Origin: a virus
Direction: 5' to 3' (one strand)
Virus record (IMG/VR): IMGVR_UViG_3300024346_008877
Location: 1 to 39,895 of that record
DNA length: 39,895 bases
Shown: positions 3,001 through 33,122 of the stretch, piece after piece
Layout of the letters: each line of letters opens with the position of its first letter
How positions within the stretch are numbered: position 1 is the first letter of the stretch
Position numbers and translations under genes: made by a program
The notes under the pieces: model-generated
What the model was told of the DNA's origin: nothing
Database searches by the model: none
Seen by the model: only the letters and a program-made list of their open reading frames with translations

Positions 3001-3898
3001 ATTAAATGGAATACCTATTTTTAGAGGTATGTATAATATCATCAAGGTTAAACATGAGATAAAACCTAATTCAATGAAAACTAATTTCACTGGTGTTAGA
3101 GCTCGTAAAACGAAAAGTAAGTTAGTTGATAAATCTACTATATTTTTAAATATATTAGGTTCTATAACTGATATAGTTACTGATGGGGTTACACTAGATG
3201 ATAAACCAAGAAAAGGTGGTAGTGTTGATGGTAAATATATTATTCATAATCTTGACCAACCTTTAGGTTTAAAATGTCAAGATGGTGCGAATAGTAAAGA
3301 AGCTTATTGTCTATTCCCAGTGAAAGAATTTTTAACTGAATTAGGTAGACGCTGGTATCAAGAAATGCATATTCCGAACCCAGATAAATTCCCAAACCAT
3401 TTGTTATATAATGATTTATCGTTATATAATGGTGGTAATATTGAAGGTCATGCTTCACATGAGAATGGTATTGATGTTGATTTCAGACCATTAGGTTTAA
3501 ACCCTAGTGATTATAATGGTGTGATATCTGTAAATTCAACTAATTATTCATCTGGGAATAATTTAGAGTTATTTAATTTCATTAAAAAGGTGAATGATGA
3601 TAAAAAATGGACTCCTTGGAAAAAAACTAATGGGGATAGGTCTCCAATTGAGGTTATTTTCTTTAATGACCAGTTGGTTATAGATGCTTTTAAGAATGAT
3701 AATAGTTTTAAAGTTAAAAAAGAATCTAACCATGATAACCATTTCCATATTAGGTTTAACATCCCAGATAAATATTTAACTAATTCTGGTAGTGAGGATG
3801 ATTTACTTGATAAAGATTCTATCCCAACTGAATCTGGTTTACTAGGTATACAAGGTAACATTCCAAGTAATATTGACCTTTATTTAGGTAAAATTTAA
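1..3898 (+). CDS. Tail hub-like protein with C-terminal MepA-type (M74) murein endopeptidase, 5' partial
   Basis: The reading frame is already open at base 2, so the true start lies upstream and at least 1298 codons are present. Most of the protein is unrecognised virion-like sequence. Around 2930-3110 there is a stretch (IEMLGNAMIQPLMYFQLNGI, then FRGMYNIIKVKHEIKP) that resembles the end of gp27/gpD-type tail hub domains. The C-terminal ~220 residues look like a LAS-family zinc peptidase of the MepA/M74 type: GHASHENGIDVDF at 3446-3484 gives the H-x6-D zinc pair spacing and NHDNHFHIRF at 3728-3757 gives the final HxH. MepA cuts D-Ala-mDAP cross-links in peptidoglycan. I infer a tail-tip protein that opens the cell wall during DNA injection, functionally like T4 gp5. 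The next gene follows after 12 bases and is also a wall hydrolase. The peptidase call is strong; the hub call is moderate. Confidence 0.72.
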   Translation, partial: EVLEFISDQTEKQWIPVSPFDTIIYNKNSPYSVLEQDGNVHDYIRLLMYRLITINSFTNSNLSESELKSFANIEANNIYNSIKNGVIKNTIGSLTLTGVNELLTGINGEVGLNNYSLDKNKILKLNGDKYEYVYTPDTYISSGKKYYDLDRENILINSNSKDEYNGNVFTNTTREERISLRNEGSLLFLSDFSYDNSVACVNGVVDNTDNGATFIDIIDTNLFNTISPSLPEYSLSDVDSNSSDLSITNYESESTVSGGLFAGKFGINQFDKINRKVGSSTITTNSFASTITNFSDVPFFSYSKDVKTLKTEQKNNAYFFVGDTGIIKSVNTDLTKLTVYKSLPDNYQQFAGDNNPKVKSIKTYNALSIDDLSNRLLERKYDDIHIPFVGFSVDGGETNGYSNYSLFGSDIYYNQDDFGKALLFLGCTPLTRGVMGESNEFEIIRFFDTKTLALFNDRGGFIELPYAWILSLGSLIYRMEEGKNLKFTSTIGNIKYHLVPEKEFDDDNSNTDQHIFITNQVFSFGGNKIDSNILTSVTSEKLDKVIRFLPKQIKDKFKLEFTNWVEGGFQDIKNEFEIFKPNTTTEARYDFWVRLNQGLNSDLNVILRDSVLSDNFLRNYDMIISDYPFSKDLLGDGPGGGIKFPSSVSEAKEAFNDEFSPFNFFLSNKEGSSGVSKLKDFMFSSKIVVNATPHVWKNYTELDEKGLVISKNSYETFFKNFISKFSELNKDKSKNIEKENEVKEQLFNSIDNDDIKLNIYKKLKLIYDKWVCGTEVTYEDIGDELFKSFKFIDRGYNDITDTFLINPVVMNEYLIGNYNQSMYSYIGKVLPDNNIDFFALPSYVNYDSPSELAKVFTPFDYNHTPKVVGPSFICMYIGERSSQLNLTDDDGSFMSDSFNINMNGSEVDISEVPADMVTKGDNKLPVFMVNYGDENQSVFNDIQLDQSEFTATDEYLTTVDELTNTRGIGQNLFDIYNTRAYTANIEMLGNAMIQPLMYFQLNGIPIFRGMYNIIKVKHEIKPNSMKTNFTGVRARKTKSKLVDKSTIFLNILGSITDIVTDGVTLDDKPRKGGSVDGKYIIHNLDQPLGLKCQDGANSKEAYCLFPVKEFLTELGRRWYQEMHIPNPDKFPNHLLYNDLSLYNGGNIEGHASHENGIDVDFRPLGLNPSDYNGVISVNSTNYSSGNNLELFNFIKKVNDDKKWTPWKKTNGDRSPIEVIFFNDQLVIDAFKNDNSFKVKKESNHDNHFHIRFNIPDKYLTNSGSEDDLLDKDSIPTESGLLGIQGNIPSNIDLYLGKI

Positions 3899-3910: not shown

Positions 3911-4456
3911 ATGACTAATAAAGAAAAAGCTATTTTAGATATGATAGCATATGCTGAGGGTACACTAGGTGTTTCACAAAATGGGTATGATATTGCGTTT
4001 GACCATCGAATAATTGTTGGTTGGATACCAGAGACTACAATGAAACACGGTGGTTTATTATGGAAGGAACAATTAAGAGGTGAGGGTAAAAGATTATCTA
4101 CTGTGGGAGGTAGATATCAATTCAAACAGGAAACGTGGGTTGAGGTTGTAGGTGATATCCCATTTAATAAAAATAATCAAGATATTGGTGCTTTGAAATT
4201 ACTTAATAGTGTTATAAAAATGACTATTAGAGAAAAAAAAAGCGTTAATATAGAAACGATGAGTAATAAAAATGAGTTTATTATATTATTAAATAAAATT
4301 GCATCAACTTGGGCTTCAATACCTTATGAGTATAATGGTTTTAAATCTTATTATAAATACACTGATGATAAAGGTGAAAAAGTTCCACAACCTAGTAAAT
4401 CCGTTGATGAATTATATACTATTTATAATAAGGCTTTAGATTTATATGGAGGGTAA
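3911..4456 (+). CDS. Lambda R-like (GH104) muramidase / endolysin
   Basis: 181 residues, matching the length of lambda endolysin R (about 158) with a short C-terminal extension. The family cuts the glycan strand of peptidoglycan as a lytic transglycosylase. Visible matches to lambda R are AYAEGT at residues 13-18 (the Glu16 position corresponds to catalytic Glu19 of lambda R), GGRYQF at 66-71, NNQDIGALKLL at about 88-98, and ASTWASIPY at 131-139 against lambda SNIWASLPG. There is no signal peptide or membrane segment, so export would need a holin or tail delivery. It sits 12 bases after the peptidase-bearing hub gene and uses an A-rich leader with no Shine-Dalgarno sequence. It could be the endolysin or a second tail-associated lysozyme; its position beside the hub favours the latter, but the sequence cannot decide. 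Confidence 0.8.
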   Translation: MTNKEKAILDMIAYAEGTLGVSQNGYDIAFDHRIIVGWIPETTMKHGGLLWKEQLRGEGKRLSTVGGRYQFKQETWVEVVGDIPFNKNNQDIGALKLLNSVIKMTIREKKSVNIETMSNKNEFIILLNKIASTWASIPYEYNGFKSYYKYTDDKGEKVPQPSKSVDELYTIYNKALDLYGG

Positions 4457-15215: not shown

Positions 15216-15599
15216 ATGGCATTACAAACTATAAACATAGATTTTCCATTTAAGAATAGTGTGAATGGAGATTTTGTAAAGTTAAATGATAATGATAATG
15301 AGGCGATAAAAGCTGATTTGATGCATTTAATTTTAACAAATAAAGGTGAGAGATTATACTTACCAGATTTCGGTACTAATTTAAGAAAATATATTTTTGA
15401 ACCAAATGATAGTCTAACTTTTGGAGACATCAAAGGAGAGATTAATGAGTCGGTTAAAAAATACCTACCTAAATTAAAAATAAAAACGATTACAGTTGAG
15501 GAATCAAATGAGTCGGAATACACTTCGATAGTTAGAATAGATTACATCGTAACTGATGATGTATTTGAAACTCAAGATTTTATAATATTAGAATTGTAA
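15216..15599 (+). CDS. 25: Baseplate wedge protein, gp25-like
   Basis: 127 residues, the size of T4 gp25 (132). gp25 is a conserved sheath-initiating baseplate wedge component in contractile tails. The hallmark stretch is TNKGERLYLPDFGTNLRKYI at residues 41-60, followed by FEP. It opens the baseplate cluster and is followed by a membrane protein and gp6. The leader contains AAGGAT just before the ATG, the nearest thing to a Shine-Dalgarno sequence in the window. No Bacteroidota -7 element is obvious upstream, so a different late promoter class may drive it. Confidence 0.9.
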   Translation: MALQTINIDFPFKNSVNGDFVKLNDNDNEAIKADLMHLILTNKGERLYLPDFGTNLRKYIFEPNDSLTFGDIKGEINESVKKYLPKLKIKTITVEESNESEYTSIVRIDYIVTDDVFETQDFIILEL

Positions 15600-15611
15600 C
15601 AAACTAAAAAA

Positions 15612-16073
15612 ATGAATAGAATAAATAGGTGGGAGTATAGCGTAAGGTTAATTATAATCTTACTAGCTATCTTTTCACCTTTTTTATTATTAATTCTACA
15701 TGGTTACGAATCTTCACTATCCAACTACTGGGAAACGGAAATGCAACCAATTTTCATATTATCAAACGCAACTACATCTTATTTTCTATATAGAATAAAG
15801 GGTTGGGAAATTCCAGCTCTGTTGTTATTACTATTAACAGCATTTTCAGTTGAATATTACGGTACCACCCATAATATGTTAGCAACAACGTTTTTCATTT
15901 CTTGTTTATTACCACTATATAGAAAGAAAGAAATGAGAATGATATTCTATTTATACGTTTCAAGTGTTATTTTCGTCCCAATCAGTTTATTTGTATTTGA
16001 AACTATCTCAGTAGTTTTATTATGTTCATACCATTTAATCATTTTAAATAGAGTTTATAGATTAAATAAATAA
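15612..16073 (+). CDS. Multi-pass membrane protein of unknown function in the baseplate cluster
   Basis: 153 residues with four to six predicted membrane segments: about 12-31 (LIIILLAIFSPFLLLILHGY), 66-82 (IPALLLLLLTAFSVEYY), 88-101, 111-130 (MIFYLYVSSVIFVPISLFVF) and 133-148, plus a weaker one near 45-60. Both termini carry Arg/Lys residues. I recognise no family. It lies between gp25 and gp6, where T4 has no membrane protein. Candidate roles are a holin-like or superinfection protein, or a membrane anchor for baseplate assembly. The gene starts 12 bases after gp25 behind an A-rich leader, so it is part of the same transcript. Confidence 0.8.
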   Translation: MNRINRWEYSVRLIIILLAIFSPFLLLILHGYESSLSNYWETEMQPIFILSNATTSYFLYRIKGWEIPALLLLLLTAFSVEYYGTTHNMLATTFFISCLLPLYRKKEMRMIFYLYVSSVIFVPISLFVFETISVVLLCSYHLIILNRVYRLNK

Positions 16074-16129
16074 TTAACCTTTATTTATAAAAAAAAATTT
16101 TTAAATTGTATTTATAAATAAAAATACAA

Positions 16130-17947
16130 ATGGCTAAAAAAATAAATTATTTTAATAGGAACTTCGCTGATGTTAGAGGTGAATTAATTAATTTCGTAAG
16201 ACAGTACTACCCAAATATATTCTCAGATTTTAATGATGCCTCAGTTGGTATGATGTTAATTGAGCTAAATGCGGCAGTATCTGATATGTTATCGTTCCAC
16301 ACTGATAGAACTTTTCAAGAAACTCAAATAGATTACGCACAAGAAAGAGCTTCAATTTTAGCTATGGCTAGAACCTTTGGATTAAAAATCCCTGGTAAGA
16401 GACCATCAATAAGTATTGTTGATTTTAGTGTTAATGTACCAGTAAATGGTGACACTTTTGATATTTCTTATTGTCCTATTATTAGAGTTGGTGCTCAAGT
16501 ATCTGGTGCTGGTAAATCTTTTGAAACTGTTGATGATATTGATTTCGCTTCACCATTCACAACTGGTGGTGTACCAAATAGACTTATAATTCCAAATATT
16601 GATTCTAATTCAAATATTGTTAACTATACTATAACTAAAAGAGAGTTAGTTGTGAATGGTGCTACTAAGGTATTTTCTAGAACTATTGAATCATCTGATG
16701 TTAAACCATTTTTTGAGATAGTTTTACCAGATAGTGATGTTTTATCAATATCAAATTTAATTACTTTAGAAGGAACTAATTTTACCACCAACCCAAGTGT
16801 TGATGATTTCTACAATTTAGATAACAGATGGTTTGAGATGGATGCTTTAGCTGAGGATAAAGTTTTTATTGAGGATAATAATGTTGTGTCGGATAATTTC
16901 GGTATCAAGCCAGGTAAATGGCTTAGAGTTGATAAAAAATTCATTAAAGAATATACTGATAATGGTTTCACTAAAATAATTTTTGGTGGTGGTAATCAAG
17001 ATATAAGTTCGTTAAGTAATTTTGATGTTAATCCTAGTCTAGTAAATAGAATTGGTGATTTCATTAATAACCTATCATTAGGGACTACTTTAACTGCGAA
17101 TCAGACACTTTTTGTTCAATATAGAATTGGTGGAGGTAAAGCTAGTAATCTAGGTTCTAACACTATTAAAACGGTTAACACAGTTGATATGTTTGTTAAT
17201 GGTTTAGAAACTAAGAAAAATCAAGCTGTTAGAAATTCTTTAACGGTTAACAATCCAGTTCCAGCTATGGGTGGGAAAGATGAGCCTAGTGTTGAAGAAA
17301 TTAGAAATTTAGTTAGATATAATTTCGCTTCTCAAAATAGAGCAGTTACTATCAAAGATTATCAAACTAGAATTGCTTTAATGCCTGGTGAGTTTGGTGT
17401 ACCATTTAGATGTGGTGTTCATGAGGAACAAAATAAAATCGTTATTTCAATTTTAGGTCTAAATAGTAGTGCTAAATTAACTTCAAACGCTACAAGTACT
17501 TTAAAACAGAATGTAGCTGATTATTTATCTGATTATAGAATGTTAAATGATTTTGTTGAAGTTAGAAATGGTAGAGTTGTTAATTTAGGGTTTGAGATTG
17601 ATTTATTTATAGATAAAAAATTTCCACAGTCTCAAATAATGAGTGAGGTGATTTCAAATGTAAAAAGTTATATGGATATTAACAAACATGATATGGGTGT
17701 TAATATTTACCTTTCACAATTACTTGAGACTATCAATAATGTTGGTGGTGTGTTGAATGTTATTGATATGAGGATTTATAATAAAATTGGTGGTGGAACA
17801 TATTCATTAAATGAAATTTCACAACCATATCTAGATGATGTGACTAGACAAATTGATTTATTAGGTGAATTCACGTTATTTGGAGAACCAAATACAATGT
17901 TTGAGATATTAAATCCTGAAAAAGATATTAAAGTTAGAGTTAAATAA
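16130..17947 (+). CDS. 6: Baseplate wedge protein gp6-like (baseplate J family)
   Basis: 605 residues, close to T4 gp6 (660). gp6 forms the continuous inner ring of the baseplate. The N-terminus (DVRGELINFVRQYYPNIFSD, then MMLIELNAAVSDMLSFHTD) is typical of gp6/baseplate J proteins, and the region around residues 390-440 (NFASQNRAVTIKDYQTRIAL, then GEFGVPFRCGV) matches the core of the J family. The C-terminal third has the alpha/beta pattern of the dimerisation domain. It follows a 56-base AT-rich gap and leads straight into a small membrane protein gene. Confident. Confidence 0.88.
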   Translation: MAKKINYFNRNFADVRGELINFVRQYYPNIFSDFNDASVGMMLIELNAAVSDMLSFHTDRTFQETQIDYAQERASILAMARTFGLKIPGKRPSISIVDFSVNVPVNGDTFDISYCPIIRVGAQVSGAGKSFETVDDIDFASPFTTGGVPNRLIIPNIDSNSNIVNYTITKRELVVNGATKVFSRTIESSDVKPFFEIVLPDSDVLSISNLITLEGTNFTTNPSVDDFYNLDNRWFEMDALAEDKVFIEDNNVVSDNFGIKPGKWLRVDKKFIKEYTDNGFTKIIFGGGNQDISSLSNFDVNPSLVNRIGDFINNLSLGTTLTANQTLFVQYRIGGGKASNLGSNTIKTVNTVDMFVNGLETKKNQAVRNSLTVNNPVPAMGGKDEPSVEEIRNLVRYNFASQNRAVTIKDYQTRIALMPGEFGVPFRCGVHEEQNKIVISILGLNSSAKLTSNATSTLKQNVADYLSDYRMLNDFVEVRNGRVVNLGFEIDLFIDKKFPQSQIMSEVISNVKSYMDINKHDMGVNIYLSQLLETINNVGGVLNVIDMRIYNKIGGGTYSLNEISQPYLDDVTRQIDLLGEFTLFGEPNTMFEILNPEKDIKVRVK

Positions 17948-17954
17948 AAAAGTT

Positions 17955-18266
17955 ATGAGTTGTTGTAAAGAAAAATTAGATTCACCAAAAAATGATGGTG
18001 GTGGTAATATATTAGGTGGTATTTTATTTTTTATTGTAGGTTTTGTTGTAATAACAGTTTTACTACCATTTATTTGGTTAGCTGGTATCTATTTTTTATT
18101 TAATAGTGCTATCTTAAATAAAAGTAGTACTATTCTCCCATCAATGACTTTCTTTTATAATTTACTAAATAAAAATAAGGAGGTTGATGAAGATGAAGAG
18201 GTTGATGAATATAATGTTGATGACTATGAGTTAATGGATTACCAAATAATTGAGGATGATGAATAA
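17955..18266 (+). CDS. Small membrane protein with acidic tail, unknown
   Basis: 103 residues. The N-terminus starts MSCCKEK, followed by a Gly-rich linker, one long or two short hydrophobic segments at about 20-53 (ILFFIVGFVVITVLLPFIWL, then AGIYFLF), and a C-terminal tail of about 30 residues made mostly of Asp, Glu and Tyr. The organisation is of a small integral membrane protein with a charged tail. It lies between gp6 and a giant baseplate protein, and its last eight bases overlap the next gene (ATGAATAA). The function is unknown; two membrane proteins in one baseplate operon is unusual. Confidence 0.75.
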   Translation: MSCCKEKLDSPKNDGGGNILGGILFFIVGFVVITVLLPFIWLAGIYFLFNSAILNKSSTILPSMTFFYNLLNKNKEVDEDEEVDEYNVDDYELMDYQIIEDDE

Positions 18267-21200
18267 TAATTTAAGAATAAGAACGGATATAGGTAAAGAT
18301 AAGTATCTCAAGGTAAATTTAGAACAAGATTTCGATTTCCTTGAGATTTTGTCATTAAAGATTTCCCAAGAAGATGTTTATAGACGTTTTAACGCTAATT
18401 ACGGGGTTGTAGTTGGTAGAGTTATAGTAAATAATGGATTAGGTGTGCCTAATGCCAAAGTATCCGTATTTATACCTATTAATGATTCAGAATCAACCAA
18501 TTTAAAATCTTTATATCCATTTAAAACAATCAATGATAAAGATTCTGACGGTATTAGATATAATGGTCTACCTAAAGAATATCAAAGTGATTGTCACACA
18601 CCAGTAGGTACCTTCCCAAATAAGAGAGAGGTATTAGATAATGATATAGTTTTTGAAATGTATGATAAATACTATAAATTCACTACCACAACTAATGATG
18701 CTGGTGATTTTATGTTATTTGGGATTCCAGTTGGTAATCATATGTTAAATGTTGATGTTGATTTATCTGATATTGGTATTTTCTCACAAAAACCATATGA
18801 TTTTATCGAACAAGGTAATCCAGAAAAATTATTCAAATCTCCAACAGTATTTTTAGGTGGTAAAAACCTAAATAGATTAACCCAAATTAAAAATCAAAAA
18901 ATGGGTGTTAATGTAATACCATTTTGGGGTGAAGATGATGAAATCGGTATTTCTAGAATTGATGTAGATTTAAATTATAATCTACAACCATCCGCTATCT
19001 TTATGGGTAGTATATTTGGTGATAATGAGAAAAATTCGGTTAATAAAAACTGTAGACCTAGAAAAGATTTAGGTCGATTATGTGAAACTGTTTCCGCTAA
19101 AGGTACTATCAATATGATTAGAAAAGATATTGATAATAATATTGAAAAGTTTGATATTGAGGGTGGTAAATTAATTGATGAATTTGGAGCTTGGGCTTAT
19201 CAAATTCCGATGAATTTAGATTATGTTGTTACTGATGAGTTTGGTGAATTAATCCCAAGTGAAGATACTAGTAAAGGTATCCCAACTAGAGCTAAGGTTA
19301 GATTTAAAGTAGCTATGGATGATACAGGTGGTGATGGTAGATTAAGAACTAGAGCTAAGTTTCTTATACCACATAACCCCACATCGGTTAATGATATTGA
19401 TTATAATTTTGATGAAAATACTAAAGATAGTAGTTTTAGTGACTTATCGTGGAATAAAATATATACTGTTAGAAACCATATTACTAGAACCCAAGCGAAT
19501 TGTTCGTTTGCATGTGCTGATAATAGAAGAATGATTGGTATTAAAGATGTTGATGATTGTGTTGGTACTAAAAATCCTTTCCCATTTAATAGATTGGATG
19601 GTGATTTTAATCCATTATTCTCAATAATATGTATTATTATGGGTATTATTATAACCATAGTAAGTATTTTAAATGGTATATTAAGATTAATTAACGGAAT
19701 TAGAATACCAGTTATTAAAGTGTTCCCATTTAGAGGTGTGAAGTGTGTACCATTAAACTGTGATGGTGTTAGATATGCGCCAAATTGTAGTCGAAGAGCA
19801 TCACCATCAGGAACTCAAAATAGGTCTGGTGATGATTTACATGAGTGTTATAAAATATTATTAGCTGAATCACTTAATGTATTTGAGTTTGATTTTTATA
19901 ATGATTGGATTAATGGTACTTTATTTTCATTTTTATTAAAATATAAAAAGGTTAAGAATAATGAGAAATTCTGTAGTGTTGATAGAAGTGAAAGTGGTTT
20001 CATTGTTGATACTTTAGGTAGAGGTGATTTAAAAAGTCAATCTAGTGAAAGAATTTATAAAGGTTTCATCAAGAAATTCAACGGGGAATTGTTTTACGCT
20101 CCATATGATAGGGATAGAGATTATTTGTTATACGCAACTGATATTACTAGTTTAGGTGCTATCAATCAATGTGATTGGGAAGGTAAACCTAGTTTCCACG
20201 AACATCTTTTACCAACAACATATAAGATACCACCATTAACTAATGTTGATGAACCAAACGTAGCTAAAATGGCTGATAGCAAATCTAGTGAAGCGTTATT
20301 ATTCACTTTCACATGTGTTTCTATGAAAACTAATCAAACCCAAATAAATAACATAAAAAGATTATGTGAGATAGGTGTTGGGTTAGACGAGGATAGAAAT
20401 GATGAGCCAAATGGGGTTTCTAAAGACTATGTGATTGATGTTCAAGATATTGATGACCAATTTGTTAGAGATGGGTTAATAGTAGCTAATTCTAATTCAC
20501 TAACATTAACAACTGGTGGTTTAAATAGTGATTTTGTTGGGTCTGATTATAGTAATTTTAGAAATTTTTCAAATAGAACTATCAAGCAAGCTAAGGGTAA
20601 TTCATTCTACATGTATTTTGGTACTTCACCAAATAATAGTGCTGTGGATAAAATGAATAATAAATATTTCACACCATGTGAACAAGTTTTTGCACCACCG
20701 TTTATAATAAATGGTGTTGTTAGTGATGTAACATTTTTAGGTGGTAATGATGGTGGTATTGATATTAGTATTATTGGTGGTAGTGAGCCATTTACATATT
20801 CTTGGGATAATGGTCAAATAACTGAAGATTTAAATAATTTAATCGCTGGTGAATACACTGTTACTGTTATTGATGATAATGGTAGTACTAATAAAAGAAA
20901 ATTTACAGTTAGAGAACCTTCACCAATTAGAGTAGATTATACTACGAATACAACCAGTGGTCCAACAAATTCTGATGGTTCATTATGTATCACATCAATT
21001 ATTGGTGGTAATGGTAACTATTCAGTTAGTCTAATAGGTCCAACTGGGAATCCAACTACTATTGTGGTTAATAACCCACAACCTAATTTTTGTTTTACTG
21101 GTTTAACTGTTGGGACATATTATTTAAATGTTTCTGATAGTAGTACAATACCTTTAACAAATGATAGTGTTGTTGAGATAGTAGCACCTTCATTATTAAC

Positions 21201-22005
21201 TGCTGTGATTACTTTCACATCACCTTTTTGTTATGGACCTGATGATGATAATGATGCTTTTATTGGTATTGCACCTAGTGGTGGTACACCACCATATACT
21301 GTTGTAACTTCAGGACCTATCACTGGTGGTACTGAAACATACTCATCTTCATTATTAAATCAATATGGTTTGTATGAGGGTAATTACCTAGTTACTATAA
21401 CCGATTTATTTGGTCAAGTAGTTACTGGGTCTGGGTTTATAGATATACCATTAGCGTTAGAAATAGAAGTTTCATCAAACCAAGTGTTTGACCTTGGGGT
21501 ATTACCTTATCAAATGTCTTTAAATAATTTGGTGATAATATTAAATTATACTACACCATATGATTTAACTAATCAGAATAAAACATATTATATTAAATAT
21601 AGATATACATCAGTCATTGGTTTTAGATATGCTTATTATAGATTCACCCCAAATTCACCTAGTGATTACGGTGTTTATGAAAATGGTGGATTACAATTCA
21701 CATCTTCATTATTAACATTAGTTGGGACTACTAACAGCCCAAATACATTTACTAATGGGAAATATGGTAGAATAGTCGCTCCGTTATATTATCAAGCTAA
21801 TGGTTTCGGTAATAATCAATTATTCCATATTTTCAAAGAGGGTACTGTTGATGAAATTGGTAATTTTACAACTTCAAGATTAGTAGGTGGTTTAGGACCA
21901 ATAAACTATGAATTTACTATCCCATTAACAGCAACAGCTGGTGATACTATATTTATTACTAGTGAAAGAGATGGTTGTGAATCAAATAAAGAAATACTTG
22001 GATAA
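18259..22005 (+). CDS. Giant baseplate-region protein with SprB-like repeats
   Basis: 1248 residues from ATG 18259 (an in-frame ATG also lies at 18256; the frame opens at TTG 18250). It occupies the gp7 position after gp6. Near residues 45-185 a beta-sandwich resembling carboxypeptidase-regulatory-like domains is suggested (VVVGRVIVNNGLGVPNAKVS, later GIPVGNHMLNVDVDLSDIG). A strongly hydrophobic stretch lies at about 453-478 (IICIIMGIIITIVSILNGIL), followed by a Cys-rich part (CVPLNCDGVRYAPNC). Residues about 820-1071 hold three SprB-like repeats; the first reads GGSEPFTYSWDNGQ...LIAGEYTVTVIDDNGS. SprB repeats occur in Bacteroidota gliding adhesins. It is probably a baseplate or fibre-attachment protein. 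Coding identity is certain; function is inferred from position. Confidence 0.72.
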   Translation: MNNNLRIRTDIGKDKYLKVNLEQDFDFLEILSLKISQEDVYRRFNANYGVVVGRVIVNNGLGVPNAKVSVFIPINDSESTNLKSLYPFKTINDKDSDGIRYNGLPKEYQSDCHTPVGTFPNKREVLDNDIVFEMYDKYYKFTTTTNDAGDFMLFGIPVGNHMLNVDVDLSDIGIFSQKPYDFIEQGNPEKLFKSPTVFLGGKNLNRLTQIKNQKMGVNVIPFWGEDDEIGISRIDVDLNYNLQPSAIFMGSIFGDNEKNSVNKNCRPRKDLGRLCETVSAKGTINMIRKDIDNNIEKFDIEGGKLIDEFGAWAYQIPMNLDYVVTDEFGELIPSEDTSKGIPTRAKVRFKVAMDDTGGDGRLRTRAKFLIPHNPTSVNDIDYNFDENTKDSSFSDLSWNKIYTVRNHITRTQANCSFACADNRRMIGIKDVDDCVGTKNPFPFNRLDGDFNPLFSIICIIMGIIITIVSILNGILRLINGIRIPVIKVFPFRGVKCVPLNCDGVRYAPNCSRRASPSGTQNRSGDDLHECYKILLAESLNVFEFDFYNDWINGTLFSFLLKYKKVKNNEKFCSVDRSESGFIVDTLGRGDLKSQSSERIYKGFIKKFNGELFYAPYDRDRDYLLYATDITSLGAINQCDWEGKPSFHEHLLPTTYKIPPLTNVDEPNVAKMADSKSSEALLFTFTCVSMKTNQTQINNIKRLCEIGVGLDEDRNDEPNGVSKDYVIDVQDIDDQFVRDGLIVANSNSLTLTTGGLNSDFVGSDYSNFRNFSNRTIKQAKGNSFYMYFGTSPNNSAVDKMNNKYFTPCEQVFAPPFIINGVVSDVTFLGGNDGGIDISIIGGSEPFTYSWDNGQITEDLNNLIAGEYTVTVIDDNGSTNKRKFTVREPSPIRVDYTTNTTSGPTNSDGSLCITSIIGGNGNYSVSLIGPTGNPTTIVVNNPQPNFCFTGLTVGTYYLNVSDSSTIPLTNDSVVEIVAPSLLTAVITFTSPFCYGPDDDNDAFIGIAPSGGTPPYTVVTSGPITGGTETYSSSLLNQYGLYEGNYLVTITDLFGQVVTGSGFIDIPLALEIEVSSNQVFDLGVLPYQMSLNNLVIILNYTTPYDLTNQNKTYYIKYRYTSVIGFRYAYYRFTPNSPSDYGVYENGGLQFTSSLLTLVGTTNSPNTFTNGKYGRIVAPLYYQANGFGNNQLFHIFKEGTVDEIGNFTTSRLVGGLGPINYEFTIPLTATAGDTIFITSERDGCESNKEILG

Positions 22006-25375: not shown

Positions 25376-26287
25376 ATGGCTAACGGAGTTTATGGTACAG
25401 TAAGACCAGCAGATGTTTCACTTGATGATATTGAAGTATTTCTTCATTTCTCACCAAATAGAGGTTCTTTTGGAGATACTGGTTTAACCAAATTAAATAC
25501 TAATGAAGTGTTAGAGAAAATATCTAACCCAAATAACCCAAACACTTTCGAGATTTTTGGTGGTTTATATACACTTAAACTACCAGCAAGTGTTTTTGGT
25601 AGTAAAGGTATATATTCAATTGTTATCAAACCAATTGAAATTAGAACTAAAATTACTGATAGTGGTGTTTTATCATCACAACCAAACATCAAGGGTTTAT
25701 TATTTGACACATCTACTTTACCAAGTAATTTTGTTAGTAAATTCCAAAACAATGGTTTAATTGGTTATAGAATTGAATATATTAACTCTTCACCAACGGT
25801 GGATGATGTTAAAATTAATAATTTTTTTAGAATTATTACTTCAAATAATAAAGCTGAACCAGTAACTCAAAATTTAAATAATACTAATCAGAAAGCTGTT
25901 AGATATAGGTTTAATGATAATTCTAATTTAGTTTTTGTAACGGTTACCCCTAGTTCATCCAGCAATGTAAAACCAAATGTTTTACCTTATATTGGTGAGC
26001 CAAATCAAAGTGTTATTTTAACCAATACATTCTTCAATCCTATTATGTTAGAGATTGAAATGGTTGAGTATGATGATGAATCATTAGCAATTGGGTTGTT
26101 CGGTCCTCAAACTAAATCATTAGATGATGGTGTTTATACTATATACAATTTCCAAAATGAGATATTCAAACAATTTAATCTTTATGAGATTAAAGATGAG
26201 TTTACAGGAAAACCATTATTTGAGGTTAGAGAAATTAGAACTAACATTGATTTTACGAAAGGATTTGAAAATATAACTGTAATATAA
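25376..26287 (+). CDS. Virion protein of unknown family, 303 aa
   Basis: 303 residues, first gene after the terminator and the start of the distal tail/fibre unit. The sequence is rich in beta-strand patterns and Asn/Ser/Thr. It opens MANGVYGTVRPADVSLDDIE and ends in a strand-rich domain (FEVREIRTNIDFTKGFENI). There is no catalytic or membrane motif. It joins the 1047-residue tail protein gene in a TAATG overlap, so the two are probably made in fixed ratio. A role as baseplate or tail completion protein is inferred from position only. Confidence 0.72.
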   Translation: MANGVYGTVRPADVSLDDIEVFLHFSPNRGSFGDTGLTKLNTNEVLEKISNPNNPNTFEIFGGLYTLKLPASVFGSKGIYSIVIKPIEIRTKITDSGVLSSQPNIKGLLFDTSTLPSNFVSKFQNNGLIGYRIEYINSSPTVDDVKINNFFRIITSNNKAEPVTQNLNNTNQKAVRYRFNDNSNLVFVTVTPSSSSNVKPNVLPYIGEPNQSVILTNTFFNPIMLEIEMVEYDDESLAIGLFGPQTKSLDDGVYTIYNFQNEIFKQFNLYEIKDEFTGKPLFEVREIRTNIDFTKGFENITVI

Positions 26288-29200
26288 TGGGTAGAAAGAT
26301 AAAGGTAGCTGGATATGCTCAAAAAATTTCTTATGGAAATGGAATTGAGTATAGAAATTTTTCAGATGATTTAGTTGGGAATCAATTTACTAGTAATGGT
26401 GGGAATAGCCTATTCACTATTGGTAATTTTGAGATTACAACTAATTTGGATAGTAAAATTAGTAAGATATTTAACACTAATAATTTTAGTGGTTTCCTTA
26501 CGTTATCAGACCTTAAAAATGATGATAATGTAATCTTAAAAATTGATAATTCTAAAGTAACTCTTAACCTAAATAAAAGTAGGTTAAGTAATTATGCGTA
26601 TTTCGGTTCGCTAAGAGAATATATTAGAGTTTCGTTAGAGAATATAATTATAAACTGGCCAGCATCTTTATTAGTAACTCCATTAAATAATAACAATCCA
26701 TTAGTTAATGAGAACACTGTTGAGGATTATGTTTATGATAACGTAAATGGTGTTAGTTCTTTCAAGATTAATGTTAATCGTTTAGAAAATAAATTTAATA
26801 TTAATTTTTTAAAAAATGGTACTATAATAGATTCATTTTCCGAAGGTAATGATTTAAGAAATATTGTGATTAATTACGGTGGGTATGTTATTAATATTAA
26901 TGACAAATCTTATAAAATTATTGATTTTGTTGGAGCGGATTCAAATGCTAATGATTATATCTATTTAAAAGTTGAGGGTGATGTTTTTAATTCAATCTCA
27001 AATTTTAAAATAAGATATCATATCAGACCGAATGATTTAAATATTGAGAATTTCTTTTTTGGTTTAAATGATTTTGAGAATAACATTTTAAATAGATTAT
27101 CCAATCCAATTTATACTTCTAGTTATGATTATAATTATGAGACTGAAAATGGTAGTATAATTTTAGGTAAGAAAATAATAACTTGGCCAGTATCTGATGG
27201 TTATAACATTGATTTTCAAAGTGAAAGTTATGTTGAATTTGTAACTCAATTATTAGAGATTTCAGATGCTAGTGATTTAATCAAAACAAATTTAGTTAAC
27301 AGATTTTTTGTTAGTGAATCGATTTCAGAATTCGATACTTTACCAAATTATAATGTTGATGATTTCACGTCTGGTCAAAAAATGAACAGTACTCTTAAAA
27401 TTTACGGTAGAGAGTTTGATGAGGTTAAGAAATTTATTGATGGTATTGCATTCGCTAATGTTGTTACATATGATAAAAATGGTAACATCCCAGATTCTCT
27501 TATAAAGAATTTAGCTAAGGTTTTAGGGTGGGATTTAATTTCATCAATACTAGAGGTCGATTTATTGAAAAACTACCTTACACTTGATGAAAACACGTAT
27601 GATGGTCATTCAAGAGGTATGACAGCTGTTGAGAAAGAAGTTGAACTATATAGACGACTTATTCTTAATACACCGTGGTTATGGAAATCAAAAGGAACTA
27701 GAAAATCAATCGAGTTCTTATTTAAATTTATTGGAACACCAGATGGGTTAATTTCTTTCAATGAATACATTTATGTTGCTAATAATTCATTAGATATTGA
27801 TTTATTTAAGGATATCTTAACTAGTAATACTGGTGATGATGATTTGATTGGTTTAAACATAGACACTGAAGGTTTTCCAGTTGTTAATAGGAATAATAGT
27901 GAGATGTATTTCCAAAAAGCTGGTTTATGGTACAGAGAGACTTCGGGTGTTAACTCAAATATTGATATTTTAGTAGGTAATAATCCACATGTTGGACCAT
28001 ATGATGCTGGTCAAGAATATATGAATCAATTTAATTGCTTAATACCTGATTTTGAACCAGTAACCTTAATTAATGAGAAAATTAGGGTTAATACTGATAA
28101 TTTATTCACTAATTATGATGAAGGTACTTTTGATGATATCTATAATAATAACATTGTTGGTACAATCGATTTAAATATTGATTTTAGTGGTATGGTTAAC
28201 ACTCAAATGGTTGAAGATTTATTAGGATACCAAATACAACCAGACTTAAGTGGTTGTTCTGGAACTACTACTTGGGTAATGAATGGTTATCTAGATAATG
28301 AGTTAATTTACTCCAATCCACTAGTTAGTGGTGATTCACTATCTAATGGTGTTTTAATTAACTATGGTAATCTTGAGGGTAGTTTTATTGATAGTCTAAG
28401 TGGAATGTTAAATACTTTAAATGTTTATTATAGTCCTATTACTTCAATCACTTCAACAACTGAGTTTAATTTTGTTGAAGGAAGTGGTTTGTGTGAAGTT
28501 TATGAACCATACTATCTTAATAAAGATATTAGGGTTGAATTGAATTTAAATTTAGATTATTCTTGTTTAGGTGGTGATTGTTCACCATCGTCTTTACATG
28601 TTAGTGATATTAACACTGAAACTGGGTTTGTTTCCTTTAGTAATGTTACTAATAATGTGGTTATGAGTGCTGATTGTTGTACTAATTTAGGATTTAACAG
28701 CGTACCTGTTAATGGTGGGTTTAATTGTTATAATACGGGGACAACTTCATCATTTGGTTTAACTACCGATTTATATGTTTTCTTAGATAGTAATTTAGGA
28801 ACCAAGGTAATCCCATATGCTAAATCAATAATGAATGCTTGGTTTTCACAATATTTAACGGATAACCCAAGTCACACTGGTAATATTTATTTAATGGAAT
28901 CATTTGATGGTTTAAATTGGTTAGATTATATGATGCAACCATGGTACGGTAATTTTGAGATAAATGAACCAACACCACCACCATATTTAAATGATGATTT
29001 CTATACTATTGTGTTTACAACTAGTAGTTTAAATACTTATCATTACAATACAACTAATATGGTAGGTCAACCAACGGTAAATTATACTAGTAATTATGAT
29101 GCGTTAGTTAATTACCATCCTAATTTCACTAATTTTAAAGGTTTAATATTCCCAGTTAGTTATCAATTTGGTTCGGTAGATGTTGAAGAAGCTGTTACCA

Positions 29201-29430
29201 AACAAGCATTAGCGAGTATTGAAGGTAGATTAATACCTAATAATGAATTACCGAGTAGTAACGTTAACTTGAGTGAATTAACTACTAATAACCCATATAT
29301 AACACCTTCATTGGTAGCGTTAAAAGAATTTAACATACATGGAGTATATGATAAAATAGGAATTGAACCTACATCTATGTTCTATTCGCAAGCATTTATA
29401 GATGAATTAAATAATTTCATAAATAATTAA
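26287..29430 (+). CDS. Large tail protein with tail-protein-I-like segment and one CC-repeat
   Basis: 1047 residues, beginning in a TAATG overlap. At about residues 450-500 the segment VELYRRLILNTPWLWKSKGT, continuing RKSIEFLFKFIGTPDG, resembles the core of phage tail protein I / baseplate wedge proteins (an Arg-rich helix, then KGTxxAIxxLL). The protein is otherwise strand-rich. Near its C-terminal third (C760/C765, C797-C798, C814) it carries one unit of the cysteine repeat found in the next two genes (CC-x2-LGF-x9-C). I infer a baseplate-periphery protein to which the Cys-rich proteins attach, perhaps by homotypic contacts. Tail-protein-I similarity is moderate; the repeat is directly visible. 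Confidence 0.72.
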   Translation: MGRKIKVAGYAQKISYGNGIEYRNFSDDLVGNQFTSNGGNSLFTIGNFEITTNLDSKISKIFNTNNFSGFLTLSDLKNDDNVILKIDNSKVTLNLNKSRLSNYAYFGSLREYIRVSLENIIINWPASLLVTPLNNNNPLVNENTVEDYVYDNVNGVSSFKINVNRLENKFNINFLKNGTIIDSFSEGNDLRNIVINYGGYVININDKSYKIIDFVGADSNANDYIYLKVEGDVFNSISNFKIRYHIRPNDLNIENFFFGLNDFENNILNRLSNPIYTSSYDYNYETENGSIILGKKIITWPVSDGYNIDFQSESYVEFVTQLLEISDASDLIKTNLVNRFFVSESISEFDTLPNYNVDDFTSGQKMNSTLKIYGREFDEVKKFIDGIAFANVVTYDKNGNIPDSLIKNLAKVLGWDLISSILEVDLLKNYLTLDENTYDGHSRGMTAVEKEVELYRRLILNTPWLWKSKGTRKSIEFLFKFIGTPDGLISFNEYIYVANNSLDIDLFKDILTSNTGDDDLIGLNIDTEGFPVVNRNNSEMYFQKAGLWYRETSGVNSNIDILVGNNPHVGPYDAGQEYMNQFNCLIPDFEPVTLINEKIRVNTDNLFTNYDEGTFDDIYNNNIVGTIDLNIDFSGMVNTQMVEDLLGYQIQPDLSGCSGTTTWVMNGYLDNELIYSNPLVSGDSLSNGVLINYGNLEGSFIDSLSGMLNTLNVYYSPITSITSTTEFNFVEGSGLCEVYEPYYLNKDIRVELNLNLDYSCLGGDCSPSSLHVSDINTETGFVSFSNVTNNVVMSADCCTNLGFNSVPVNGGFNCYNTGTTSSFGLTTDLYVFLDSNLGTKVIPYAKSIMNAWFSQYLTDNPSHTGNIYLMESFDGLNWLDYMMQPWYGNFEINEPTPPPYLNDDFYTIVFTTSSLNTYHYNTTNMVGQPTVNYTSNYDALVNYHPNFTNFKGLIFPVSYQFGSVDVEEAVTKQALASIEGRLIPNNELPSSNVNLSELTTNNPYITPSLVALKEFNIHGVYDKIGIEPTSMFYSQAFIDELNNFINN

Positions 29431-31160
29431 TATGATTACAGGAAATATAAAAAGAGATATAACTATTGATTCAGATACTTTTGAAGTGTCTGGTGCTACA
29501 ACACCTATTAATATCGTTGTTGTGGATTCCAATAATTTAGATATCTCCGAATGTACTTTAGTTACTAGTGAGGTTATCAAGACCAACCCAGCTATTAAGT
29601 ATTTTGATGAATGTGGGTGTCCTATTGATGTTTGTCAAAAAGGGTCACTTAGAATTAAAATTAAGAAATTAGAACCAGAGTCTGCTAATTGTGATATTAA
29701 AGAGTTTGTTTTAGATGATAGTGGTCTGGTAATATTCATTACTGATGATGAAAAAACTTTCTTTATAGCTCCAGAATGTTGTGAAGCGTTAGGGTTTGAA
29801 CCAGAAATCAACCCAAAAACAGGCCTTTACCAATGTAGATGGAAAGAAGATGTTGTTGTTGATGATTGTGATAAATACACTGTTATTGGTGAATCTGAAG
29901 GTTTCGTTTATTTTCAAGATTCTAATGGTTCAAGTACAATATATGTACCAACTAAAGAATGTTGTCCTAACGATACAATCCCAGAATTAACCAATGATGG
30001 TTATCGTTGTACTGTGGTTAAACAAGTTGATTCGTGTTCTGATTATACTGCAACTGCACTTGAAGAAAATGGTTATGTTGTATTTACAACAGTAAATGGT
30101 GGAACCACTACGATTGTACCAACCAATGAGTGTTGTACGTCAATTGGGTACTCACCAACCCAAACAGCTAATGGGATTGCTTGTTTAATATGTAGAGATT
30201 ATGTTAGCTACACTTTTAATAATCTTGGTATAGCAGTGTTTGTTAATTCGAATGGTGATTCATTTGAAATAGTTAACAATACTACTTGTTGTCCAGCTAG
30301 AACCAACCCAATTTTAGAATCGGATGAAAATGGGTTAGAGGATGTAAGTGCGATTGTTAAATGTCGTTCAGTCAAATATAATGGTGGAAATGGTGATGAA
30401 ACTTGTAGATATTTAAAATCAATAAATGCAACTCCTAACCCTAGTGGTGGTTTCACTAGTATGACTGTTAGTGGTAAATATTGTAATGGCGCTGCTTTTG
30501 AGTTCTATTTTAATAATAATGATAATAATCAAAATATACATACTTTCCAAGTTGTTGAAGCGTGTGTTATTGAAAGTTCAATTGTTATATCACCATATAC
30601 ACCTCAAAGGGTTTTATATGATTGGTCGGCACAAAGTTGTTCAGCTCCAACAGCTTTTATCTCACCTATTAATAGTGGTGTCGTTGGTTGTACAGCTAAA
30701 AATATTAGAATTACTGGTACGCCAAATTCAATTGTTAAATATGATTTCACTACTTTAAGTAATGGTAATCATGGGTTTGTAAATGAATTTACATATGATA
30801 ATGGTAATGCGATAAGTGTAACTTCTGGTGATATTTATATCCCGAATTCTGGTGTTGTAAACTTAACTTGGAATTTATGTGCTAGACCAACTATTGTGGC
30901 GAACGTTGAGAATTGCGTTTCAGTTAAGTTAGACTTTAAATATAATAATAATATAATAGGTAGTTCAACATCTACCCCATGTAGTGATAGTTAATATGGA
31001 ATGTAAAAATATAAAAAATCAGGTGGTTAAATCGTTCCAATTAGGGGATGATGGAATTGTCTATGGTTATGATAATATAGAGGATAAGGCTTCAGTTGAT
31101 TTTGAATGTTGTACTTCTTTAAATTATCAATTTGACCCAGTTGATGGGGTTTGTTATTGG
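28560..31160 (+). repeat. Six-unit cysteine (CC) protein repeat spanning three adjacent genes
   Basis: Protein-level repeat with pattern C-x(28-34)-CC-x(14-23)-C. One unit lies at the end of the 1047-aa protein (CC codons at 28675-28680), four are in tandem in the 520-aa protein (first CC at 29777-29782), and one is at the N-terminus of the 708-aa protein (C3, C38-C39, C53). Several units share LG(F/Y) or LNY shortly after the CC and a Gly before the closing Cys. DNA identity between units is low, so the repeat is old or diversified. Confidence 0.75.
29432..30994 (+). CDS. Cysteine-rich repeat virion protein (four CC-repeats)
   Basis: 520 residues. Residues about 87-311 consist of four tandem units of 52-61 residues, each with a lead Cys, a GxVxF-like strand pair, a CC pair and a closing Cys: C87/C116-C117/C135, C146/C177-C178/C193, C202/C234-C235/C251 and C254/C286-C287/C311. 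Examples are ECCEALGFEPE, ECCPNDTIPE, ECCTSIGYSPT and TCCPARTNP. A CGC-x4-C cluster precedes them (residues 61-68). The C-terminal ~200 residues are strand-rich with scattered Cys. I know no family with this pattern. The cysteines could form disulfides once the virion is outside the cell or bind metal. It starts one base after the previous stop (TTAATATG). Confidence 0.78.
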   Translation: MITGNIKRDITIDSDTFEVSGATTPINIVVVDSNNLDISECTLVTSEVIKTNPAIKYFDECGCPIDVCQKGSLRIKIKKLEPESANCDIKEFVLDDSGLVIFITDDEKTFFIAPECCEALGFEPEINPKTGLYQCRWKEDVVVDDCDKYTVIGESEGFVYFQDSNGSSTIYVPTKECCPNDTIPELTNDGYRCTVVKQVDSCSDYTATALEENGYVVFTTVNGGTTTIVPTNECCTSIGYSPTQTANGIACLICRDYVSYTFNNLGIAVFVNSNGDSFEIVNNTTCCPARTNPILESDENGLEDVSAIVKCRSVKYNGGNGDETCRYLKSINATPNPSGGFTSMTVSGKYCNGAAFEFYFNNNDNNQNIHTFQVVEACVIESSIVISPYTPQRVLYDWSAQSCSAPTAFISPINSGVVGCTAKNIRITGTPNSIVKYDFTTLSNGNHGFVNEFTYDNGNAISVTSGDIYIPNSGVVNLTWNLCARPTIVANVENCVSVKLDFKYNNNIIGSSTSTPCSDS

Positions 31161-33122
31161 AGAAAACCATGTGAATTTGATGATGATATTAAAATTCTAG
31201 TTTCCCCACTTGGTGAGGACGGTCTTTTTTATCAGATAAATGAGGGTGATAAGTGTAAATTGAATATTGAGTTTGATTATTTAATAGAATTAGATTGTAA
31301 AGCTTTGAATAAATGTCTTGAGGTTAATGATATTAGAAAAAATCAATTCGGTTTGATTAATAGTAAGATTGATAATAATTCAGAACTAATAAATGATAAA
31401 GATACTACTATCTTATTATTAAATTCTGAATTAAAATTAGTTAATGATAATATTGTTGGTAAAATTACTGAGTATGATTCCCAATTGAAAATATTAAATA
31501 GTAAATTGGAATTTAACAATTCAGAACTTAAAAAACTTTATGAGTTATTATATTCTGAGACTGATTCGGTAAAAAAAATGAGTTATGAGAATAATTTATT
31601 GATTTTAAATAATGAAAATGAAATTCTTATCAGTCAGATTACTGAAAATAAAAACACAACCCAATCTTTAAAAAGTGAATTAACTAATAAGATTAATTAC
31701 TATAGTAATTCAATAAATTCTATTAAGAAAGAGAAATATTCATTAATAACGGATAATTCGGAATTAAATGCGAACCTAAATAGAATAAACCCTGAAGTAA
31801 CGTTAGTTGATATTTTAAGTAACTTTAAATTAACGATGACATTAGAAGTTTTATCGGATGTTGTTGATGATGATATACCATTTGAGAGTAGTCAAATATT
31901 TTCAAGTCTTTTAAGTGAAAAATTATTTGATGTTGATAATCTTATTGAATATTTCAATAACACTGAAAACACTGGGTTATTTTTAAATGATAATGGTAGT
32001 GATGATTGTAGTAGGGTAATCAAATTACTTTACGGTGGTTTAAATAGTGAGGTTAACTTTAATGTTTTGGAACAATCATTAAATTCTCAATGGTTACATT
32101 TTTCATTAGAGGTTGAGGATGAATATATTCTAAGTTTAATAGAGAATAAATTTATAAAATTAGGTTTTATAATTGAAAACAATTTATGTGAAACGTCATT
32201 ACTATTAGATAATATTGAATTTAATAGAACGTGTGAAGTAATTGAAAAAACTGAAACCTTCATAGCTACATGTCCGTCATTTGAATTAAATAGAGTTATT
32301 GATAATAAAAAATCTTGGGTTAGTAATAATGAGGTTGAGGATAGAGAGTTCCTATTAAAAAAGAGAGAAACTGGGTATGTTATAAATGATTCTAGGTTAG
32401 GTATTAATAGTAAAGAGATTGACATTAGTTTAAATCCAAGTTTGGCGATTGAAAGTGATTTTCAAAATTTTGTAATTGATAATCCATGTTTAATTGAATC
32501 GTTCTCTGGTATTTTAACTAGTAACATTTTTTCAGAAGGAATAACCATTAACGAATTTAAGGATATTTTATATTCTGAACTTATTGATGTTAAATCTAGA
32601 AAAGTAATTAGTGGTTACCCTGTGTTAAAAGCATTATACGATGCTTATTTAGATAGTTACGCAATTTGTGGTGTTAGTTCATCTAAATTTAATTATATGT
32701 CAATGAATGACTTTATATCGCTTATAGGGACCTATTGGGTTGATTTGATAGAGCAAGTAATTCCATCTACAACTATTTGGGGTTCAACATATAAATATAA
32801 TAACACAATTTTTGATAATAATAAGTTTAAATACAAAAAAAGTACGTTATTCGTATGCAAACCACCTAGCGAACCAGTTTCACCAATAATTGGTATGGAA
32901 CCATTAGTTAGTGCTGATATAACAACATATTACTACGATGATAATAGTGAATTGGTTGAGGAAAACACATCATGTGATGCAAGTTATGTTTTACAAATTA
33001 GTGATGGGTCTGAATTTATAGGTAATGTTAGTGTTATCGGTAATATTAAGGGTAACAAATTTGATGGTGATATGATAACACTAAATGAATCTGAAGATTC
33101 AACAATACAAAAAATAATTTAA
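30996..33122 (+). CDS. Fibre-like protein with N-terminal CC-repeat and coiled coil
   Basis: 708 residues from ATG 30996; a GTG 12 bases upstream is in frame but the TTAATATG junction matches neighbouring genes. Residues 3-53 form one CC-repeat unit (C3, C38-C39, C53; FECCTSLNY). Residues about 105-265 are a long Asn/Lys/Leu/Ser-rich heptad region (for example LNSELKLVNDNIVGKITEYD) that should form a coiled coil. The rest is globular with scattered Cys. The layout, attachment module then coiled coil then distal domains, suits a trimeric tail fibre or whisker. No receptor-binding family is recognised. Confidence 0.72.
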   Translation: MECKNIKNQVVKSFQLGDDGIVYGYDNIEDKASVDFECCTSLNYQFDPVDGVCYWRKPCEFDDDIKILVSPLGEDGLFYQINEGDKCKLNIEFDYLIELDCKALNKCLEVNDIRKNQFGLINSKIDNNSELINDKDTTILLLNSELKLVNDNIVGKITEYDSQLKILNSKLEFNNSELKKLYELLYSETDSVKKMSYENNLLILNNENEILISQITENKNTTQSLKSELTNKINYYSNSINSIKKEKYSLITDNSELNANLNRINPEVTLVDILSNFKLTMTLEVLSDVVDDDIPFESSQIFSSLLSEKLFDVDNLIEYFNNTENTGLFLNDNGSDDCSRVIKLLYGGLNSEVNFNVLEQSLNSQWLHFSLEVEDEYILSLIENKFIKLGFIIENNLCETSLLLDNIEFNRTCEVIEKTETFIATCPSFELNRVIDNKKSWVSNNEVEDREFLLKKRETGYVINDSRLGINSKEIDISLNPSLAIESDFQNFVIDNPCLIESFSGILTSNIFSEGITINEFKDILYSELIDVKSRKVISGYPVLKALYDAYLDSYAICGVSSSKFNYMSMNDFISLIGTYWVDLIEQVIPSTTIWGSTYKYNNTIFDNNKFKYKKSTLFVCKPPSEPVSPIIGMEPLVSADITTYYYDDNSELVEENTSCDASYVLQISDGSEFIGNVSVIGNIKGNKFDGDMITLNESEDSTIQKII

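Follow-up and report, generated by a model that had tools for sequence, protein, structure and literature searches.

Phage virions assemble in a reducing cytoplasm, and the locus described here raises the question of what a cysteine motif repeated six times across three consecutive tail genes would do in such particles. The locus lies in a fragment of an uncultured virus (IMG/VR record IMGVR_UViG_3300024346_008877), the whole 39,895 nucleotides of which were analyzed and are referred to here as the window. The window encodes RNR, a helicase, and a UvsX-like protein together with gp25- and gp6-like baseplate genes, and the presence of the latter pair places the cassette that holds the three genes, designated P1, P2, and P3, in a contractile-tail module. 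A Bacteroidota host is likely for this virus: a Shine–Dalgarno-like sequence precedes 1 of 29 gene starts in the window, an SprB-type repeat falls just under the Pfam cut-off, and protein-level relatives include Cellulophaga and Flavobacterium phages.

Six cysteine units in three consecutive tail genes

P1 (26287-29430; 1047 aa) carries one unit, P2 (29432-30994; 520 aa) carries four in tandem, and P3 (ATG at 30996 to 33122; 708 aa, or 712 aa from an alternative GTG start at 30984) carries one at its N terminus, which is the placement that a sequence-only reading of this DNA had proposed. That reading gave the spacing as C-x(28-34)-CC-x(14-23)-C, a pattern that holds except for its lower bound after the CC pair: the six units conform to C1-x(28-34)-CC-x(13-23)-C4, with unit 6 supplying the shorter distance (Table 1). 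When residues were shuffled within each protein of the window, the pattern was matched 0.22 times on average and at most three times in 2,000 shuffles, compared with the six matches observed. Cysteine makes up 5.4% of P2 and 2.3% of P3 versus 0.79% of the remaining window proteins; P1, at 0.76%, is thus not cysteine-rich overall, and its unit is flanked by other domains rather than placed at the very end of the protein. The cysteines of unit 6 and W55 are invariant across 40 aligned P3 rows.

Table 1. Features of the tail cassette in the window, with positions in the full stretch
Feature	Position	Strand	Evidence
gp25-like and gp6-like baseplate wedge genes	15216..17947	+	PF04965 GPW_gp25, E 8.8e-14; PHROG baseplate wedge, E 5.6e-20
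P1 core, residues 1-620, N-terminal half of split structural protein	26287..28146	+	Conserved in relatives
CC unit 1, P1 tail (C765-x31-C797C798-x15-C814)	28579..28728	+	Pattern and profile
P1 C-terminal domain	28744..29427	+	tblastn, 27% identity over about 230 aa to Cellulophaga phage protein
P2 N-terminal domain	29432..29689	+	Homologous to P1 tail of P2-less phages, hhalign 93.8%, E 1.7e-7
CC unit 2, P2 (C87-x28-CC-x17-C135)	29690..29836	+	Pattern, profile, structure model
CC unit 3, P2 (C146-x30-CC-x14-C193)	29867..30010	+	Pattern, profile, structure model
CC unit 4, P2 (C202-x31-CC-x15-C251)	30035..30184	+	Pattern, profile, structure model
CC unit 5, P2 (C254-x31-CC-x23-C311), 3' part degenerate	30191..30364	+	Pattern, profile; model confidence low there
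P2 C-terminal region, about 200 aa	30377..30991	+	One close relative only
CC unit 6, P3 N terminus (C3-x34-C38C39-x13-C53, W55)	31002..31154	+	Alignment, structure model
P3 helical hairpin, residues 101-262	31296..31781	+	Structure model; SMC and EmrA arm matches
P3 core, about residues 265-680, C-terminal half of split protein	31788..33035	+	Fused to P1 core elsewhere

The units belong to one domain family

We built a profile from the six units, the check that had been suggested for this repeat, and iterated it over the phage loci. The iterated profile collected 107 units in 78 proteins from 62 loci of uncultured phages, some of which overlap on one contig. Among 93 distinct CC-bearing units, two are truncated where their contig stops, and C1 is present in 91 of the remaining 91, while C4 is present in 92 of the 93, the exception having a longer insertion before the next cysteine. 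Distant P3 proteins initially read as having no C1 were misread, as their first cysteine sits further upstream. The CC pair belonged to one search pattern; in a scan repeated with the C4-W end pattern only, which is blind to CC, 37 of 37 matches carry the pair.

Identity to one reference unit is low, about 11–47%, as would be expected if unrelated segments had converged by chance on the same CC spacing. We give this reading hardly any credence, since single units attain profile E-values of 1e-10 to 1e-16 in a range of proteins from different phages, and the units have in common a predicted topology and a conserved glycine in addition to the cysteines. For the P2 and P3 units, convergence is already contradicted by these profile searches, and least so for units of the group B proteins described below. 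On the profile evidence, the six units are homologous copies of one small cysteine domain of about 50 aa; the shared module first noticed in P1, P2, and P3 is borne out by this homology, by the conserved cysteines, and by like predicted topology in P2 and P3.

The domain had gone unrecognized in the sequence-only reading, and profile searches of Pfam, NCBIfam, PHROGs, and PDB sequences agree, with no accepted match for the units or their proteins. When 26 units were searched against Pfam, isolated one-member matches alone were returned (best E 0.0068), none above a curated cut-off, and profiles of the unit, the fused protein, and P1 retrieved nothing useful from PDB sequences. A tblastn search of P2 and P3 against 50,697 annotated phage records found no match, the annotated collection yielded no phage with the split proteins, and P2 alone as query retrieved no related loci. 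A scan of one genome per species for 84,980 bacterial and archaeal species yielded chance-like matches only; the domain thus looks virus-specific within what was searched, and the units define a new and apparently virus-specific family that is absent from the libraries searched. The candidates dropped comprise 41 cellular-genome matches to the CC...C-W pattern, which look like chance (profile E 0.01 or worse), and a borderline match in Bacteroides phage C3_41T2LP, which lies in a short hypothetical ORF with no tail gene nearby. Finally, P1 tails of one locus (L026:7065-7817) and its relatives have a second module in which CxC (PDGCNC) replaces CC and which may be a sister form to the unit.

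Predicted structure of the units and of P3

AlphaFold2 models of P2 and P3, computed as single chains on alignments of phage relatives, are of moderate confidence (mean pLDDT 63.5 and 72.3, respectively). The P3 unit and the well-modeled P2 units are predicted to adopt a strand-strand-(strand)-short helix-strand-strand arrangement in which CC starts the short helix. Comparison of the P2 model with the PDB gave TM-scores of about 0.1 only in Foldseek, and VIA-align gave no match at Z 2 or more, results that do not make the fold new. The matches of P3 in structure searches were filled by coiled-coil arms, so unit 6 itself was barely probed. The long P3 helices (residues 101-187 and 191-262) match the antiparallel coiled-coil arms of SMC (Z 13.1, rmsd 3.2 over 158 residues) and EmrA (Z 11.3). 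The earlier description of P3 as a coiled-coil protein needs adjustment on this point: the stretch, which is present in the window virus and its nearest relative, is missing from many P3 relatives (e.g., those at loci L018 and L099) and is thus predicted to be an inserted helical hairpin and not a fiber shaft.

The P1 and P3 cores are one protein in other phages

When P1, P3, and the CC pattern were used as queries, more than 100 loci were retrieved, in which the P1 core is about 50% identical among relatives with separate P1 and P3 genes (split) and 31–42% identical to proteins in which the two cores are joined (fused). With each gene designated by the size of its product in the window, the cassette of split phages reads 562 > 281 > 244 > 303 > P1 > (P2) > P3 > 80 > 479 > 703 > 396 > RuvC-like, and the fused gene occupies the same slot (562 > 281 > 244 > 303 > P1+P3). 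Directly 3' of the fused gene in other phages lies a counterpart of the 1251-aa protein encoded upstream of P1 in the window (18250-22005), which shows an SprB repeat and a carboxypeptidase-regulatory-like match that both fall short of the Pfam cut-offs.

The cores are fused, P1 first, in 36 distinct ORFs. A compact fused group (L010-L012, L048-L078, and others) comprises 30 distinct ORFs, each about 1000 aa long, and none of them contains a CC pair. Proteins of a second fused group, group B (L080, L081, L089, L091, and others), are 2640-2840 aa long; the linker that separates their cores spans 1300 aa and contains several CC tetrads, the homology of which to the unit is weakly supported. Outside the compact fused group, 67 of 69 P1 proteins have CC, nearly all past the end of the core (about residue 620), and the P3 of the split group usually starts with a tetrad unit, also at loci that were not found via the CC pattern. 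These phages provide a natural experiment, with the same structural protein made either as a single chain that lacks the domain or as two or three chains that carry it. In a midpoint-rooted tree of P1 cores, both fused groups fall outside the split clade, a topology that favors an origin of the split from a fused ancestor, with low support for the split clade and a root that is not independently known. No described split/fused baseplate protein was found in a literature search.

The best reading of P2 is that it is the P1 tail, enlarged and encoded by a gene of its own, since its N-terminal domain is homologous to that tail in P2-less phages, where the tail bears CC modules and an ECGC-like motif, and since two loci (L020 and L084) have P2-like sequence joined to P1. 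The region between the cores is highly variable in length and content, with repeats that multiply in one clade and another apparently mobile domain in the same P1 tail. These features would suit surface decoration, i.e., receptor-binding (adhesin-like) repeats that accumulate where variable domains are tolerated. The P3 unit, however, is strictly N-terminal and is kept in very divergent relatives, unlike a fast-evolving adhesin, and the unit is absent from all compact fused proteins; we regard decoration as unlikely.

A proposed cysteine connector between two halves of a tail protein

The location of the modules at the junctions of three tail genes suggests that they are joints, probably disulfide-stapled, of one tail structure. 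We lean, by a modest measure, toward a model in which the cysteine modules serve as a connector and bring the halves of a split baseplate/fiber protein back together, each unit with two disulfides. The six units, as copies of one ~50-aa domain, would constitute the connector in a baseplate/tail-fiber protein of two parts. In this lineage the connector is broken into the P1 tail, a separate P2, and the P3 N terminus, each bearing cysteine modules. Within the virion the modules would most likely pack together and thereby rejoin the P1 and P3 halves. That the three chains meet via the modules is argued by the existence of a fused version, i.e., a gene-fusion argument, and by the presence of modules on each side of the break. 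The original suggestion of a chain of three proteins linked by their repeats has strong indirect support, in that the P1 and P3 cores are one polypeptide elsewhere and the cysteine modules lie in the connector; the contact itself and the bonds we infer. Counted against the connector are the group B tetrads, given their weak homology, and the position of the P1 unit between other domains.

The two disulfides of each unit, to which we attach less weight than to the connector, would most likely link C1 to the first CC cysteine and C4 to the second, and they would form once the particle is outside the reducing cell. This pairing is suggested by a single natural variant, the P3 unit of L037 (L037:7821-12569), in which C1 and the first CC cysteine are lost together (KSSC) and the second CC cysteine and C4 are kept. 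This variant and the precedent of phage Milano discussed below make locking by disulfides plausible. Metal binding is the main chemical rival: each unit may instead be a Cys4 site for zinc or iron around which the domain folds in the reducing cytoplasm in which the virion assembles, with no disulfides and with placement in the connector unchanged. Four conserved cysteines per unit would suit one tetrahedral site, whereas the loss of two of the four in L037, albeit one variant only, is not what is expected of a Cys4 site, which should be lost whole; a metal site seems to us rather improbable. A broader version of the disulfide-bonded connector, which we offer tentatively, is that the virus-specific cysteine domain is a trans-docking, disulfide-snapped joint that allows one baseplate protein to be made as two or three chains and reassembled outside the reducing cytoplasm, the number of snaps depending on the lineage.

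Relation to disulfide-stabilized tails and T4-type baseplates

Disulfide-stabilized tails are known in one small phage group, Agrobacterium phage Milano and its relatives 7-7-1 and OLIVR4, which likewise have a contractile tail and structural proteins high in cysteine (PMC10491603, PMC10811340). Intersubunit disulfides extend across the neck, tail, and baseplate of Milano (PMC10491603, PMC10811340), its structural proteins contain 2.1% cysteine (PMC10811340), and the baseplate part of the disulfide network must be reduced before contraction (PMC10811340, PMC10491603). The high cysteine content is found here as well, in P2 and P3 relative to the rest of the window. In those accounts, the disulfides of Milano form between cysteines that belong to the sheath, collar, neck, capsid, and baseplate proteins themselves, whereas in the window virus the cysteines are concentrated in a repeated, dedicated domain in a connector between two cores; covalent locking of tail parts, as reported for Milano, would be a shared feature. 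If the connector is as proposed, the idea of a disulfide-stabilized tail extends to a widespread, uncultured group of phages with T4-type baseplate genes. The existence of one-chain and multi-chain forms opens to direct test whether dedicated cysteine domains serve as joints of separately encoded tail parts and whether such joints are redox switches.

The T4-type baseplate wedge module contains gp25, gp6, gp7, and the genes that follow, and the window cassette also has gp25- and gp6-like genes, with P1 ~8 kb downstream of gp6 and several genes in between. In Microcystis phage Mel-JY01, a relative of the P1 core closely follows gp25-gp6; the central stretch of the P1 core matches this phage's 1336-aa protein (hhalign 95.8%, E 7e-9). 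Assignment of P1 as a T4 gp7 homologue has no support at the sequence level (hhalign probability 0.2% for the fused family). The P1 C-terminal domain is shared with gp042 of Cellulophaga phages phi4:1 and phi17:2, a 2289-aa structural protein that was detected in virions by MS according to its database record and that, unlike P1, is without a CC pair; this domain may be mobile among virion proteins. A sequence resembling it occurs twice inside the P3 of locus L125. Elsewhere in the window, a 1253-aa protein (137-3898) has a match to Peptidase_M74 (murein endopeptidase) near its C terminus and adjoins an endolysin-like gene (3911-4456).
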